Origin: Leisingera sp. ANG-M1
GTDB lineage: Bacteria > Pseudomonadota > Alphaproteobacteria > Rhodobacterales > Rhodobacteraceae
Direction: 5' to 3'
Length of the DNA stretch: 64,000 nt
Assembly: GCF_000813745.1 (NCBI RefSeq)
Contig: NZ_JWLC01000007.1
Span: forward strand, 1 to 64,000
Both the position numbers and the translations under genes were made by a program. Below the pieces are notes generated by a model. It was not told the DNA's origin. It was given only the letters and a program-made list of their open reading frames with translations, and searched no databases. Below are positions 25,319-62,113 of this stretch, in pieces (the stretch's first letter is position 1; each line of letters opens with the position of its first letter).

Positions 25319-25441
25319 GCCCATTCAGGGCAATCCTGCCCTTAATGGGCTTCTCAGCCGAACCCTTTGCGCCGCGCAAGCGGCGCCATGCCCAAGCCCC
25401 TAATCTGCCCGGCAGGGCAGCTTGGGGCGCGGGAGCGCCCC
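25319..25441. repeat. array of four GC-rich hairpins, two with GNRA-type loops
   Basis: In order: GCCCATT..AGGGCA / TGCCCT..AATGGGC (25319-25350); GCGCCGC-GCAA-GCGGCGC (25369-25386); CCCAAG..CTGCCC / GGGCAG CTTGGG (25391-25426); GGGGCGC-GGGA-GCGCCCC (25424-25441). The last ends just before the stop of the minus-strand hydratase gene, which it may terminate. Confidence 0.65.
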
Positions 25442-26840: not shown

Positions 26841-26970
26841 CGGGAAATCCTTTGTTCGCATCTGTTGTTGCGCCCATCATGTATGGGCTCGCGCCGCTCT
26901 GGAAACAGCCATGCACGCGCAGCCCATGTGCAGCTTTACAATACCACTGTCCCGAACAGCCTGGCGCAAA

Positions 26971-26997
26971 GAAAAAGCCCGCCCCAAAGGGACGGGC
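26971..26997 (-). terminator. intrinsic terminator of the OmpA lipoprotein gene
   Basis: Minus strand: GCCCGTCCC-TTTG-GGGCGGGC followed by TTTTTC, 25 bases past the stop at 27022. Confidence 0.85.
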
Positions 26998-27021
26998 CGG
27001 CATAACCGCAAGAGCCGGGGA

Positions 27022-27681
27022 TCAGGCCGCCTGCGGGATCACCACGACTTCGACACGGCGGTTGCGGGCCTTGCCCTCCGGCGTCAGATTCGAGGCCACT
27101 GGCTGCTCTTCGCCATAGCCGACAATCCGCAGCCGGTGATAGGGCACGCCGCCGGCCTGGATCTGGTCGGCCACCGCATTGGCGCGGCGCTCGGACAGGC
27201 CCTGGTTATATGAGGCATCGCCGTCGCTGTCGGTATGGCCGATCACCCGCACAGTGCTGTTGGGGTAGCGTACCAGACTGTCGGCCACCCGGCGCAGGTC
27301 GCCCTGCACCGCGGGCGAGACCGCGGCGCTATCGGTGGCAAAGGTCAGGTCGTTCGGGAACGACAGGATCAGCCGGTCGCCAGTATTGACGATGGTGATA
27401 TCGTCGTTGGCCAGGGTCTGGCGCAACTCGCGCTCCTGCGCATCCAGCTGGTTGCCGATCACGCCGCCGGCGGTCGCCCCCACCAGCGCTCCGGTGACTG
27501 CCCCCAGACCGCGGTCGGAATCGTTGGCAATCGCGCCAACGCCTGCGCCGATGATCCCGCCCAGCACCGCGCCTTTCTGGGTGTTGCTGCCCGGCGTGCC
27601 AATGGTTGCCGGATCGGTGCAGGCGCCAAGGCCCAGGGCTGCGGCGACAATACCTGCCGTGGTGAGTTTCATCTGCATCAT
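27022..27681 (-). CDS. OmpA-family lipoprotein with glycine zipper
   Basis: 219-residue lipoprotein anchored in the outer membrane and binding peptidoglycan. Signal with lipobox LGAC at about residue 20, a glycine-zipper segment (GGIIGAGVGAIANDSDRGLG, GATAGGVIGNQL), then an OmpA-like domain from about residue 100 with the peptidoglycan-contacting VRVIGHTDSDGDASYN and LSERRANAVADQI. The start at 27681 (MMQMKLTT) or 27672 is possible. Monocistronic, with its own terminator. Confidence 0.9.
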   Translation of the reverse strand: MMQMKLTTAGIVAAALGLGACTDPATIGTPGSNTQKGAVLGGIIGAGVGAIANDSDRGLGAVTGALVGATAGGVIGNQLDAQERELRQTLANDDITIVNTGDRLILSFPNDLTFATDSAAVSPAVQGDLRRVADSLVRYPNSTVRVIGHTDSDGDASYNQGLSERRANAVADQIQAGGVPYHRLRIVGYGEEQPVASNLTPEGKARNRRVEVVVIPQAA

Positions 27682-32684: not shown

Positions 32685-32791
32685 GCTCTCCCGCCCGTCG
32701 GAACAGCACCTGACGGTGCTATCCCTCCCGTTGGCGTGGCGCGGGGCGGCAAAGCCGCCCCGCGCCACGCCCGCCCCGCCGTCCGCAGGAC
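32685..32791 (+). repeat. structured palindromic element, copy B (3'-divergent)
   Basis: CTCCCGCCCGTC at 32688-32699, hairpin I AGCACC-TGAC-GGTGCT (32705-32720), CTCCCGTTGG at 32725-32734, then a perfect 18-bp stem II (32733-32750 with 32754-32771, AAA loop) and GTCC-GCA-GGAC (32781-32791). The closing GGCGGGAGC arm of copies A, C and D is absent. It lies 10 bases after the kinase stop, before the convergent MarR gene. Confidence 0.75.
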
Positions 32792-37477: not shown

Positions 37478-37625
37478 ACTCCCGCCTGCGGTTCCACGCC
37501 CTGACGGGCCCGGCCCGCAGTTGGGCCCGGCGCCGTGCCTGCTGCACGACGGAAGGCACCGCGCAAGGCACGGTGCCATGCCCAACGGGCGCGGAGCATT
37601 TTCAATGCTCCTAAGCCTGGCGGGA
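37478..37625 (+). repeat. structured palindromic element, copy E
   Basis: Outer arms TCCCGCC (37480-37486) / GGCGGGA (37619-37625). Hairpin I CTGCGG..GCCC-TGAC-GGGC..CCGCAG. Stem II GTTGGGC with GGCGCCGTGCC pairs to GGCACGGTGCC and GCCCAAC. Hairpin III GGAGCATT-TTC-AATGCTCC. It begins 14 bases after the fadH stop and fills much of the 332-bp gap before the convergent ABM gene; I saw no gene in the remainder (37626-37796). Confidence 0.7.
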
Positions 37626-37796
37626 ACATGCTGCTTCCCAGAACCAGCCGTTCCCCCCTACCCTGGTCCGGCTGAGGACCGATAGTCCTTGGTCGTGAAG
37701 CACATCCGGCGAAGCTGCGGCGGGGCGCACTCCCGTTAGCCTGTTCGGGCTTGTAACCACTGTCTTCCTCCAGGACCTGATCAGGCTGCATATAAC

Positions 37797-38473: not shown

Positions 38474-39019
38474 AGCCACTCCTTTGCTTGCTTGTGCTCT
38501 TTGCCTACCCTGGGCTTGCGGCCGGAAGCTTCGCTCAGCACCGAAGTGTGGCAAGCATGCGCCCTGATTTCACTTCATAGGCTGGTTGCACACGCTTTCA
38601 GAACGCACCTTTTCCGGAACCGGCGCCCGCTGCGATAACGGCAGAGCCGCTTGTTTCTTCCGGTTGTTGGAGAGAGCTCCCGCCCGTCGCGGCAGCATCA
38701 AAGATGCCGCGCTCCCGTTGGGCCTGGCGCCCTGCCCGGCGGGCGGGGCGCGCGCCGCACCATCAGGTGCGGCGCCGGACCCAACTGGCACGGGCTCCCG
38801 CTAGGGAACCATTTGCCAGGCGGGAGCACTTTGCCCTGCGGCACACCTGTAATTTTGGGTTTCCCTCCCGGAGTCGGCCCGCCCGCTGGCCTCGACCCTG
38901 CCGTTTCCTTCCCGAAAACGATCCCCTTAAAACCCAGCAATTATCCCACCCCTGCCCCGTTCTTGCCCGATTTCACCGGCAACACTTAAGGCAACACGGC
39001 TTTACGAGGATGGGTGAAT
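38474..39019. other. 546-bp intergenic region holding palindromic element A
   Basis: No convincing gene on either strand. It contains the NIPSNAP promoter side (38474-38675), palindromic element copy A (38676-38827) and an AT-poor stretch before the LysR gene (38828-39019) with CTTTAC-type but no clear promoter hexamers. Short open frames here lack ribosome binding sites. Confidence 0.6.
38676..38827 (+). repeat. structured palindromic element, copy A
   Basis: Outer stem GCTCCCGCC (38676-38684) / GGCGGGAGC (38819-38827), 9 bp perfect. Hairpin I GCATC-AAA-GATGC. Stem II GTTGGG (38717-38722) / CCCAAC (38780-38785) encloses IIa (38727-38737 / 38741-38751, 11 bp with one T-G) and IIb (38752-38761 / 38766-38775, 10 bp perfect). 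Arm III TGGCA / TGCCA with inner TCCC-GCTA-GGGA. Nearly identical to copy D through stem II, but arm III differs in sequence. Confidence 0.82.
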
Positions 39020-43522: not shown

Positions 43523-43652
43523 GCTCCCGCCCGTCCCCACTGCAGGAAACCTGCACCGGTCCGGTTGGGCCAGGCTCGGCGCGCTGCGCCGAGCCTGGCC
43601 CAACGCCGCTAAGCGGGTCTGGCGCAGCCAGGGCTGCTGCGGGGGCGGGAGC
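43523..43652 (+). repeat. structured palindromic element, copy C
   Basis: Outer stem GCTCCCGCCC (43523-43532) / GGGCGGGAGC (43643-43652), 10 bp perfect. Hairpin I TGCAGG-AAA-CCTGCA (43541-43555). Stem II a perfect 19-bp hairpin starting GTTGGGCCAGG (43564-43582 with 43586-43604, GCT loop). Then CCGC-TAA-GCGG and CTGGC-GCA-GCCAG. Between the GlxA-type gene and a convergent OmpA gene. Confidence 0.82.
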
Positions 43653-59730: not shown

Positions 59731-59887
59731 GGAGCCTCCCGCCCGTCGCTGCAGCATCAAAGATGCCGCGCTCCCGTTGGGCCTGGCGCCCTGCCCGCCC
59801 GGCAGGGCGCGCGCCGCACCGCAGGTGCGGCGCCGGACCCAACTGGCTCAGGTCTCCGCAAGGAGGCCTGAGCCGGGCGGGAGCTCC
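59731..59887 (+). repeat. structured palindromic element, copy D
   Basis: Outer stem GGAG-CTCCCGCCC / GGGCGGGAG-CTCC with one bulge (59731-59744 with 59875-59887). Hairpin I GCATC-AAA-GATGC. Stem II GTTGGGCCTG (59776-59785) / CGGACCCAAC (59834-59843) encloses two abutting perfect 10-bp hairpins (59786-59795/59801-59810 and 59811-59820/59824-59833). Hairpin III 59845-59857 / 59862-59874, 13 bp with one G-T and a GCAA (GNRA) loop. It follows a classical terminator, so it is not needed for termination there. Confidence 0.85.
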
Positions 59888-59902: not shown

Positions 59903-62113
59903 TCAATTGCCGAGGATGTCGCGCAGGATGTTGTCCACAGCACGGCCCAGTTCCTGGCCAAGCTTAGGGCCCTGGCGGCGGCGCTCGCGGCGGGTTGGCT
60001 GCGGCGACGGCGCGATCGGGGCGGGCTCCAGCATCGGCAGCGGCTTCGGCGCCAGCCCGTCATGCACACGCACCATGGTCTCGCGCCAGATCTCTGCCGG
60101 CAGGCCGCCGCCGGTCACGCCGGACAGGGGCGTGTTGTCGTCATACCCCATCCAGACGCCCGCCACATAATCCGCGGTAAAGCCGATGAACCAGGCGTCC
60201 TTGGCCGCCGAGGTGGTCCCCGACTTGCCCGCCGCCTGCCAGCCCGGGATCTGCGCCCGCTGACCGGTGCCGCCAGCAATCACCTTCTCCATCATCCAAA
60301 CCAGCTGCTGTGCCGCCTCGGTGCGGATCACCCGCTCGCCGATGCCGCCGCTGGCGCCCATCAGCGCATCGCTGTCCTCGACCAGTTTCAGCTCGGTCAC
60401 CCCGTAAGGCGTCACCGAAGAGCCGCCGTTCAGGATCCCCGCATAGGCGCCGGTCATCTCCAAAAGGGTGCTTTCCGAAGCGCCCAGCGCCATTGCCGGC
60501 CCGTCTGCCAATCCGCTGTCGATGCCGAAATCCTTGGCCACGATCCCTACCTTGTCGCGGCCGACAGCTTCGGCCACCTTCACCGCCGGCACGTTCAGCG
60601 AATCCCGCAGCGCCCGCGCCAGCGTCACTTCGCCGTAGAACTTGTTGGTATAGTTCTTGGGGCACCATTGGCCGGAGCCGGGAATGTTCAGGCAGTATTT
60701 GGCATCAAGCACCCGGTCCAGCGGCGAATAGCCCAGTTCCAGCGCTGTGGCATAGACAAAGGGCTTAAAGGCCGAGCCGGTTTGCCGTTTGGCCTGGGTC
60801 GCGCGGTTGAACACACCGGAGACCCGCGTCTTGCGGCCGCCCACCATCGCGCGCACGGCGCCGTCTGCGCTCATCACCACAATAGCGGCCTGCGCCTTGG
60901 ATCCCTTACGGACCTTATTTTCGAAAACATACTTGAGCGCTTCTTCGGCAGCGCTCTGCAGGCGCTGATCGAGGGTAGAGCGGATCACCACGTCCTCGGT
61001 GGTTTGATCGCCCAGAAAATCCGGGATCGTGTCCATCACCCAGTCCGCAAAATACCCCCCTGCCCGCGCCGCCGCGGCTTCACTGAGCACCGCAGGGCTG
61101 TCCTGATTGCGCTGCATCTCGGCGGTGGTGAGATACCCCTGCTCCTGCATCAGCCGCAGCACTGTAGCAGCGCGGTCCTGCGAGCGCTGCAGGTTGTTGG
61201 TCGGCGCCAGTTTGGTCGGCGCGGTCAGCAGCCCCGCCAGCATCGCGCCTTCGGCCGCTGAGAGCTGATTGGCGGACTTGCCGAAATAGCGCTGCGCTGC
61301 GGCCTCGGCACCATAGGCGCCGCCGCCCATATAGGCGCGGTTCATGTAGATCGAGAGAATCTCGTCCTTGCGGTATTTCGCTTCCATCGCCAGGGCAAAG
61401 ATCGCCTCGGTGCCCTTGCGCCACAGCGACCCCTTGCGGCAGTCGGCCTCATAAGCGCTTTCGCTTTTCCATTCAGACGGATCATAGACGCGCCCCAGGC
61501 ACAGCAGTTTTGCCGTTTGCTGGGTGATTGTGGAGCCGCCATGGCCCGACAGCGGCCCGCGCCCTTCGCGCAGGTTGATGCGCACGGCGCTGGCGATGCC
61601 GCGCGGCGACAGGCCGAAGTGGCGGTAGAAGCGTTTGTCCTCGGTCGCCACGATGGCGTTCTTCAGATGCGGCGAAACCGTCTCCGCTGTCACCACTCCG
61701 CCGAATTGGTCGCCGCGCCAGGCAAAGACCTCTCCATTGCGGTCGAGCAATGTCACAGAGCCGCGGGCGCGGCCGTCAAGGTAGGCCGATACATCAGGCA
61801 GCTTGGAATATTGGAAAGCCACAGCAAGGCCAACCAGCAGACAGACCACCATGCCGACGCGCCAGGCAAACCCCCAGACCAGCCGGAAGGCAAAGGTGAA
61901 CGGCGCCAGCAAGAGACCAATCAGCCCGCGTTTCTTTTTCACGGGCTTTGCGCGCACCTTCTTGCGTGCGAACAGGCCGAACAAGCCCGGTTTCTTGGGT
62001 TTGCGCACAGGCTTCTTGCGTGCAGGTTTCTTGGCAGCGGGAGCCTTGCCCTTGCCGCCTGCGGAATAGCGTTTTTCTGCCACCAGAGGCTTGCGCCCGG
62101 ATCCTTGTGCCAT
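59903..62113 (-). CDS. class A penicillin-binding protein (PBP1A-like)
   Basis: 736-residue bifunctional peptidoglycan synthase: a basic cytoplasmic tail (PARKKPVRKPKK), one membrane segment, a GT51 transglycosylase domain with ATEDKRFYRHFG near residue 162 and the QQTAKLL motif, and a C-terminal transpeptidase with SxxK in QTGSAFKPF near 448, SLN and the KSGTT triad near 632. Loop and end motifs are standard for PBP1A. The tail after the transpeptidase is proline-rich. Monocistronic, convergent with the mla operon across element D. Confidence 0.94.
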   Translation of the reverse strand: MAQGSGRKPLVAEKRYSAGGKGKAPAAKKPARKKPVRKPKKPGLFGLFARKKVRAKPVKKKRGLIGLLLAPFTFAFRLVWGFAWRVGMVVCLLVGLAVAFQYSKLPDVSAYLDGRARGSVTLLDRNGEVFAWRGDQFGGVVTAETVSPHLKNAIVATEDKRFYRHFGLSPRGIASAVRINLREGRGPLSGHGGSTITQQTAKLLCLGRVYDPSEWKSESAYEADCRKGSLWRKGTEAIFALAMEAKYRKDEILSIYMNRAYMGGGAYGAEAAAQRYFGKSANQLSAAEGAMLAGLLTAPTKLAPTNNLQRSQDRAATVLRLMQEQGYLTTAEMQRNQDSPAVLSEAAAARAGGYFADWVMDTIPDFLGDQTTEDVVIRSTLDQRLQSAAEEALKYVFENKVRKGSKAQAAIVVMSADGAVRAMVGGRKTRVSGVFNRATQAKRQTGSAFKPFVYATALELGYSPLDRVLDAKYCLNIPGSGQWCPKNYTNKFYGEVTLARALRDSLNVPAVKVAEAVGRDKVGIVAKDFGIDSGLADGPAMALGASESTLLEMTGAYAGILNGGSSVTPYGVTELKLVEDSDALMGASGGIGERVIRTEAAQQLVWMMEKVIAGGTGQRAQIPGWQAAGKSGTTSAAKDAWFIGFTADYVAGVWMGYDDNTPLSGVTGGGLPAEIWRETMVRVHDGLAPKPLPMLEPAPIAPSPQPTRRERRRQGPKLGQELGRAVDNILRDILGN

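Follow-up and report, generated by a model that had tools for sequence, protein, structure and literature searches.

A covarying palindromic repeat family at gene 3′ ends in Leisingera and its relatives, probably of the REPIN/BIME kind

Five multibranch palindromic elements, copies A to E, lie in a 64,000-nucleotide stretch of the Leisingera sp. ANG-M1 genome (the whole stretch analysed, hereafter the window), and raise the question of what kind of sequence keeps its helices while its letters change. A sequence-only reading had assigned them a common order of parts, and sequence inspection and folding bore out both the positions and this order for all five; folding energies lay 5.6 to 8.6 s.d. 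below 100 dinucleotide shuffles of each copy. When the ends were set by the shared arms, the coordinates given for A and C stood, whilst B was found to start at 32687 and the limits of D and E shifted to 59735-59884 and 37478-37627. Pattern search followed by sequence inspection identified a sixth copy that had been missed (25345-25436, minus strand), which is absent from the list of covariance-model matches in the same genome. Another pattern match, at 26937-27040, does not look like a copy and was rejected.

Comparison of oriented copies revealed that the multibranch element is real, but that the repeating unit is a half-element, composed of TCCCGC, a variable stem-loop I, TTGGGC and a GC-rich hairpin II. 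Full copies (A, C, D and E) are two such halves in inverted orientation. Halves were classed as type L when stem-loop I is closed by C-G and as type R when it is closed by G-C. Copy B has no closing arm, as had been noted, and no CCCAA strand; both are also missing from the extracted B orthologues. The features of the window are as follows.

25345 to 25436, minus strand: sixth copy, an R-type half (TCCCGCG...CTTGGGC) with hairpin II, then another repeat
32687 to 32791, plus strand: copy B, lying between converging genes of the PfkB and MarR families; it is an L-type half that comprises stem-loop I and a long palindromic hairpin II and lacks the closing arm
37478 to 37627, plus strand: copy E, full element (LL), 13 bp past the stop of a flavin oxidoreductase gene
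38676 to 38827, plus strand: copy A, full element of two inverted L-type halves, between a divergent pair, a NIPSNAP-family gene starting near 38474 (minus strand) and a LysR-family gene from 39020 (plus strand)
38678 to 38683, plus strand: copy A, 5′ strand of P1, TCCCGC, outer arm
38684 to 38717, plus strand: copy A, stem-loop I (P2) with AAA loop
38718 to 38723, plus strand: copy A, 5′ strand of P3, TTGGGC
38724 to 38778, plus strand: copy A, hairpin II region, two GC-rich hairpins atop P3
38779 to 38784, plus strand: copy A, 3′ strand of P3, ACCCAA
38785 to 38819, plus strand: copy A, stem-loop I of the right half (P4)
38820 to 38825, plus strand: copy A, 3′ strand of P1, GCGGGA, closing arm
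43523 to 43652, plus strand: copy C, full element (LL), flanked by convergent genes of the AraC and OmpA families
59735 to 59884, plus strand: copy D, full element (LL), 18 bp past the stop of a penicillin-binding-protein gene (59903-62113, minus strand)

In single-stranded form, whether DNA or RNA, a doublet is able to form four helices with no unpaired base at their meeting point, predicted to be P1 (TCCCGC/GCGGGA), P2 (stem-loop I), P3 (TTGGGC/GCCCAA, topped by hairpin II) and P4 (the second stem-loop I). RNAalifold returned this four-way junction for five orthologous sequences of C and five of D, and other branched folds for the orthologues of B, which have no closing arm, and of E. In 78 doublets (34 from ANG-M1, 44 from relatives) the outer flanks are G/A-rich on the left and C/T-rich on the right at 4-7 bases beyond the TCCCGC arm, and P1 may accordingly extend past the conserved arm; copies in a genome of another genus (G025) depart from this flank pattern.

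The covariance-model search of this genome and its relatives that the sequence-only reading had proposed did find further copies. Copy A by itself has 44 BLAST places at E ≤ 10 in its own genome (5.37 Mb, 91 contigs). A model of 49 positions (R1), built from 32 copies, gave 109 matches there at E ≤ 1 (150 candidates scored), 93 of them at E < 0.01, of which at most 32 are model-building sequences. Across 61 genomes searched with a strict filter at E ≤ 0.01, R1 matched every one of the 21 genomes of the genus (between 30 and 83 times each), 5 of 16 family members from other genera and none of 24 outside the Rhodobacteraceae. When one genome per genus of the family was searched, 23 of 149 had a match at E ≤ 1e-4, with 1 to 40 each (40 candidates scored). 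A pattern scan of named genomes gave at least 111 stretches, those listed including Leisingera, Phaeobacter, Pseudophaeobacter, Tritonibacter, Epibacterium, Pararhodobacter, Meridianimarinicoccus and Parasedimentitalea. One record, titled Nocardioides marinus DP1N28-1 (L139), carries the element on a 158,711-base contig of the same size as a contig from the window's genus (G008:C10), and is probably mislabelled.

No named repeat with such an architecture was found here either: Rfam gave no match over the gathering threshold in the whole 64-kb window, and the scores on copies and loci, microRNA- and sRNA-like, all stayed below threshold, whilst an open-access literature search found no paper describing the repeat. 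It is not mentioned in the sections covered of a REP survey (PMC12306157) or of a structured-RNA screen of 26 genomes (PMC8632094).

Halves were then collected with a pattern in which TCCCGC and TTGGG alone are fixed. The ANG-M1 set derives from 106 of the 109 model matches (three weak ones on contig C77 omitted), with DNA for 87 of the 106, and the relatives' set may contain one place twice. This gave 121 halves in ANG-M1 (69 pieces, 287,693 bases) and 212 in 954,405 bases from relatives, compared with 23 in the latter DNA reversed. The pattern places no constraint on the first and last bases of stem-loop I, yet they are C-G or G-C in 113 of 121 and 199 of 212 halves, respectively: 86 and 172 are type L, 27 and 27 type R, and 8 and 13 neither. 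Halves within 400 bp in plus-then-minus order form 81 inverted doublets, 34 in ANG-M1 (LL 11, LR 11, RL 9, 3 with an untyped half) and 47 in relatives (LL 22, LR 9, RL 11, 5 with an untyped half), and none of the 73 with both halves typed is RR. Solo halves outnumber doublets: ANG-M1 has 53 (L 43, R 5, untyped 5) beside 34 doublets, and relatives, in which locus ends cut some pairs, have 118 (L 103, R 7, untyped 8) beside 47. Copies mostly measure 110-210 bp, and reach about 340.

The persistence of helices with differing sequences had been taken as the pattern of selection for a fold, and the pattern is confirmed statistically. In a core alignment of 32 copies (29 of 30 BLAST loci, L029 being omitted, plus B, C and E), the stem holds 63 cells changed on both sides, compared with 22.5 in shuffles (0 of 500), and two-sided change affects 13 of its 15 pairs. 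Since the copies are related to each other, we wrote a tree-aware test in the manner of R-scape (not R-scape itself), with a G-statistic, product correction, a FastTree tree, column pairs at least 3 apart and E ≤ 0.05; its null comprised 60 alignments per class, in which the inferred substitutions were replayed along the tree at permuted columns. The input, 233 distinct halves out of 333, was divided into four gapless length classes, so that the alignment cannot be bent toward the structure. Lengths 34, 35, 36 and 33 (83, 62, 57 and 31 distinct halves) yielded 5, 4, 5 and 3 significant pairs, and all 17 are nested pairs of stem-loop I. The earlier reading had been staked on further copies and significantly covarying pairs, and neither was lacking.

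Beyond stem-loop I, the stem above TTGGGC/GCCCAA has 548 matches in 61 short doublets compared with 482.3 ± 9.8 in shuffles (0 of 1000), whilst the P3 extension in 19 long doublets displays no covariation (140 against 137.0; 258 of 1000 shuffles). The outward extension of P1 covaries weakly (328 paired cells against 298.7 ± 11.5; 1 of 500 shuffles). The P1 arms and the TTGGGC core of P3 are beyond the reach of covariation because they hardly vary. Among orthologues at four sites (B, C, D and E), two-sided change was observed in 24 of 203 predicted pairs, a count in which the ANG-M1 genome (G000) was added at E, and G017 (B) and G014 (D, E) were omitted. As a verdict on selection the earlier claim goes too far: template switching in replication can produce compensatory change, which alone is therefore no proof of selection for a fold.

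Copies recur at the same places in relatives. Site B is recognisable in 7 of 8 relatives and degenerate in the eighth; alignments span the element at site E in 5 of 8; and at site D the region aligned in all 6 relatives fetched, with a copy found by pattern in 5 and by BLAST only in the sixth. Site C, examined at 20 loci, carries full copies in ANG-M1, G005, G004, G015, G003 and G002, shortened copies in G010, G011 and G018 and a remnant in G012. In G014, G017 and G019 a mere 29 bp separate the two genes, an arrangement that could reflect deletion, and the remaining 7 loci have no recognisable copy. Copy A is absent upstream of the LysR-family gene in all 8 relatives, the best matches there being other genomes' D sites, so that among the 9 genomes compared it occupies its place in ANG-M1 alone.

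Movement is most evident in G025, in which 14 composite copies of about 152 bp consist of an L half, hairpin II and another repeat. These composites have sharp ends and a mean identity of 93.5%, with 99.3% in the best pair and at least 97% in 14 of the 91 pairs, and their ungapped flanks are 31-38% identical. Fourteen similar copies within unrelated flanks indicate that the family moves, and the composite is a discrete unit that spread not long ago. At the offsets examined, target-site duplications were no more frequent in 34 doublets than in shuffled pairs, and inspection of 15 G025 copies by eye revealed none.

RAYTs belong to the Y1_Tnp family, which has no match in ANG-M1 or G025. Within the genus, Y1_Tnp is found in 6 of 21 genomes, compared with 21 of 21 for the repeat. 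We read 20 Y1 loci, 11 of them from repeat-carrying genomes; a half lies within 1.5 kb of two of these 11, and none is flanked by a repeat pair. Mobilisation by a RAYT or TIRYT was rejected on these grounds. An autonomous long version was also rejected, as plus-then-minus order among halves 400-3000 bp apart occurs in 4 of 10 cases in ANG-M1 and 3 of 16 in relatives, with no clear excess; one translated gene in the ANG-M1 intervals between halves presumably encodes an Mrp/ParA-type ATPase, judging by eye, and ORFs were noted in two further intervals.

Other palindromic repeats adjoin some halves. A second dispersed repeat, AAATACTCCnGGGGTGA..GGCC..GGCC..GGGGC..GCCCC, has at least 40 matches in ANG-M1 (40 of 65 candidates scored; for example C56:284663-284725 and C6:83603-83663), forms the other end of the G025 composites (loci L336-L355), and stands beside 5 of 47 solo halves compared with 8 of 1426 background 200-bp windows. 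A third, GCTGAGAAGC..GGGCAGG..TGCCCT..CCCTTGAC, comes after certain solo halves (5 of 47, compared with 28 of 1426 background windows) and occurs in the window just below 25345 (minus strand) and at L016, L200 and L207. Intergenic DNA appears to be a mosaic to which several palindromic families contribute.

BIMEs and mosaic intergenic repeats are modular, and the present family resembles them in that it is modular and some of its halves join other repeat families. It also resembles MITEs, being short, non-coding and multicopy with inverted ends; the inverted halves of about 50 bp constitute terminal inverted repeats, but no target-site duplication was seen and no matching transposon found. Integron attC boxes follow the order RYYYAAC ... 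GTTRRRY; here the order is inverted (GTTGGGC ... GCCCAAC) and R-type ends read CTTGGGC, and an attC site was rejected.

The closest likeness is to REPINs, described in the sections consulted of PMC3116915 as REP doublets that form hairpins in Pseudomonas and others, with a possible 'clover' fold drawn. On that partial account the two share an extragenic location, many copies, inverted doublets of a conserved end around a variable spacer, compensatory changes, and singlets alongside doublets. The family here displays the inverted doublet, compensatory changes in hairpins and, in G025, dissemination as a unit. REPINs are said to be duplicated by RAYTs (PMC8049555, in the section covered), whereas here we found no RAYT gene in ANG-M1, no RAYT-linked cluster, and no Y1_Tnp gene flanked by the repeat in ANG-M1, G025 or the 11 Y1 loci. 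Nor was a GTAG-tagged REP motif noticed; each end has two stem-loops, doublets can fold into a predicted four-way junction, and there are two end types, of which R never pairs with R in 73 typed doublets.

CGTC-tagged REPs are, in the portion consulted of PMC3733652, mostly alphaproteobacterial, without a dedicated transposase, mainly inverted doublets and, like the family here, near 3′ ends and between convergent genes. CGTC precedes stem-loop I in many copies here, and in several others is paired or replaced by pairing bases. Membership was nonetheless rejected, as the stems here lack the near-invariant A-T start pairs of an 8-9 bp stem and the CCA tail of that description (PMC3733652, in part), whose main text does not contain Ruegeria, Phaeobacter, Rhodobacter, Roseobacter or Rhodobacterales. 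The terminal inverted repeats associated with TIRYTs, some of them double palindromes in moderately large families, flank a Y1 transposase (PMC3733652, in the same portion), unlike the repeats at any Y1 locus we read.

We judge that this is probably a REPIN/BIME-like family of non-autonomous mobile repeats with a putative mobiliser acting in trans. The structured-element interpretation survives as a structured repeat, but one belonging to a mobile family of the REPIN/BIME kind and not obviously a stand-alone RNA. The putative enzyme would recognise a folded, sequence-variable end beside two conserved motifs, in a molecule that may be DNA or RNA and that may adopt the whole four-way junction in cells, and would copy the element to new places. 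Insertions just past stop codons, often between convergent genes, would be tolerated, and some might be retained, since a stable hairpin there, at the 3′ end of an mRNA, would be harmless or possibly of benefit to the cell. Copy number, range, anatomy, covariation, the spread in G025, the 29-bp C sites, the restriction of A to one genome and the position beside genes support this reading. Against it count the absent mobiliser and target-site duplication, the majority of solo halves, the P3 extension without covariation in long doublets, the B and E folds and the weak P1 extension, as does retention over long times with paired changes, which exceeds what a merely tolerated insertion needs.

More specifically, the family may be a REPIN-like population copied by a class of enzyme other than Y1/RAYT that recognises the folded end by its shape, a proposal we consider less likely than not. 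The shape would be that of a stem-loop whose sequence is free, set between two short conserved motifs and closed by C-G or G-C, and the stem of each end would evolve freely.

With genes called by a simple codon-usage gene finder, 86 of 87 elements were placed (some untyped halves among them probably being chance): 47 between convergent genes, 27 in tandem gaps, 7 in divergent gaps, 4 within called genes and 1 at an edge, whereas the piece containing the window has 63 gene gaps, 15 of them convergent. The 121 flanking gene 3′ ends lie at a median of 30 bp from the element, and the 41 5′ ends at 93 bp. This proximity, and the orthologous copies with paired changes at B, C, D and E, would suit an RNA element at which the upstream transcript, or both convergent ones, folds, stopping or marking the 3′ end and protecting it from exonucleases; selection on the RNA would keep the fold and spread would be secondary. 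Mean element identity at these four sites is 0.76-0.85, compared with 0.60-0.65 for the less conserved 60-nt flank (shuffled baselines 0.55-0.61), in a comparison that leaves out G014 (B), G020 (D), G000 and G002 (E) and G005 (C), though copies occur there. However, the other 60-nt flank, partly coding, reaches 0.71-0.76 and at B equals the element itself. No U-tract belongs to the element, and there is no sign that it replaces terminators: terminator-like sites lie before 10, after 33 and on either side of 39 of 99 elements, compared with 25 of 80 places without one (p 0.28). Copy A, moreover, is an exception in lying in a divergent gap.

Strand asymmetry, considered as a sign of one folded strand, was dropped. 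Mismatches in stem I favour A-C over G-T (105 to 20 cells), as do their parsimony origins (65 to 25 in the inner stem, 13 to 7 in the outer), but the other mismatches are skewed likewise (CC 42 to GG 17, AA 23 to TT 6, CT 53 to AG 22), and hairpin II has 13 G-T and 19 A-C; given this general A/C richness of mismatched bases, the excess singles out no RNA strand. On this evidence an RNA element at 3′ ends appears rather doubtful.

The stems could instead be kept by mutation itself, with template switching between the arms of a quasi-palindrome re-perfecting hairpins by multi-base compensatory changes and gene conversion adding to it. Such switching is reported to create and maintain hairpins in this way (PMC8794818, in the part consulted). 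At site C, stem-loop I has been replaced en bloc between species, with hairpin II and P4 remaining similar; gene conversion or template switching fits this no less well than step-wise change. Yet the common loops of stem-loop I (AAA, GAA, ACA and TGC) have few reverse complements, although correction confined to the arms would not invert loops, and the conserved arms and TTGGGC, the absence of RR, the position at 3′ ends and the spread are left unexplained. We regard this origin of the stems as unlikely.

Very unlikely, in our view, is a site acting at the DNA level, an extruded cruciform bound by a nucleoid or replication protein. Of 60 matches at E ≤ 0.001 in each of two genomes, the chromosome-sized contig does hold 59 in G020 (binomial p 1.5e-5) and 57 in G003 (p 0.014), and among 72,556 plasmid records just 2, both large replicons, match copy D, over 35-38% of its length; phage records gave no match to copy D. 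This chromosomal bias may, however, reflect age only. Replichore orientation, striking by eye, is not significant in G020 (p 0.24-0.26, with the terminus taken from a weak GC skew) and modest in G003 (p 0.005-0.016, with the terminus assumed). The largest match-free stretches lie near the presumed terminus (G020:C1 1.47-2.01 Mb; G003:C1 1.76-2.14 Mb). Chance palindromes in GC-rich DNA (the window is 63% GC) are refuted by the shared arms, the 93 genome matches, the significant covariation and the orthology, and retain a negligible probability.

Taken together, the family is real, strongly covarying, mobile and long-lived, and is without the usual enzyme of the REPIN/BIME kind. Should the REPIN/BIME-like reading be correct, some members of a large family of marine bacteria would harbour a REPIN-like population in the absence of the transposase credited with driving repeats of this type. 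That would offer a test case for what moves REP-like repeats that have no RAYT, for whether selection or template switching lies behind compensatory change in DNA hairpins, and for the role of such structures at the 3′ ends of genes.
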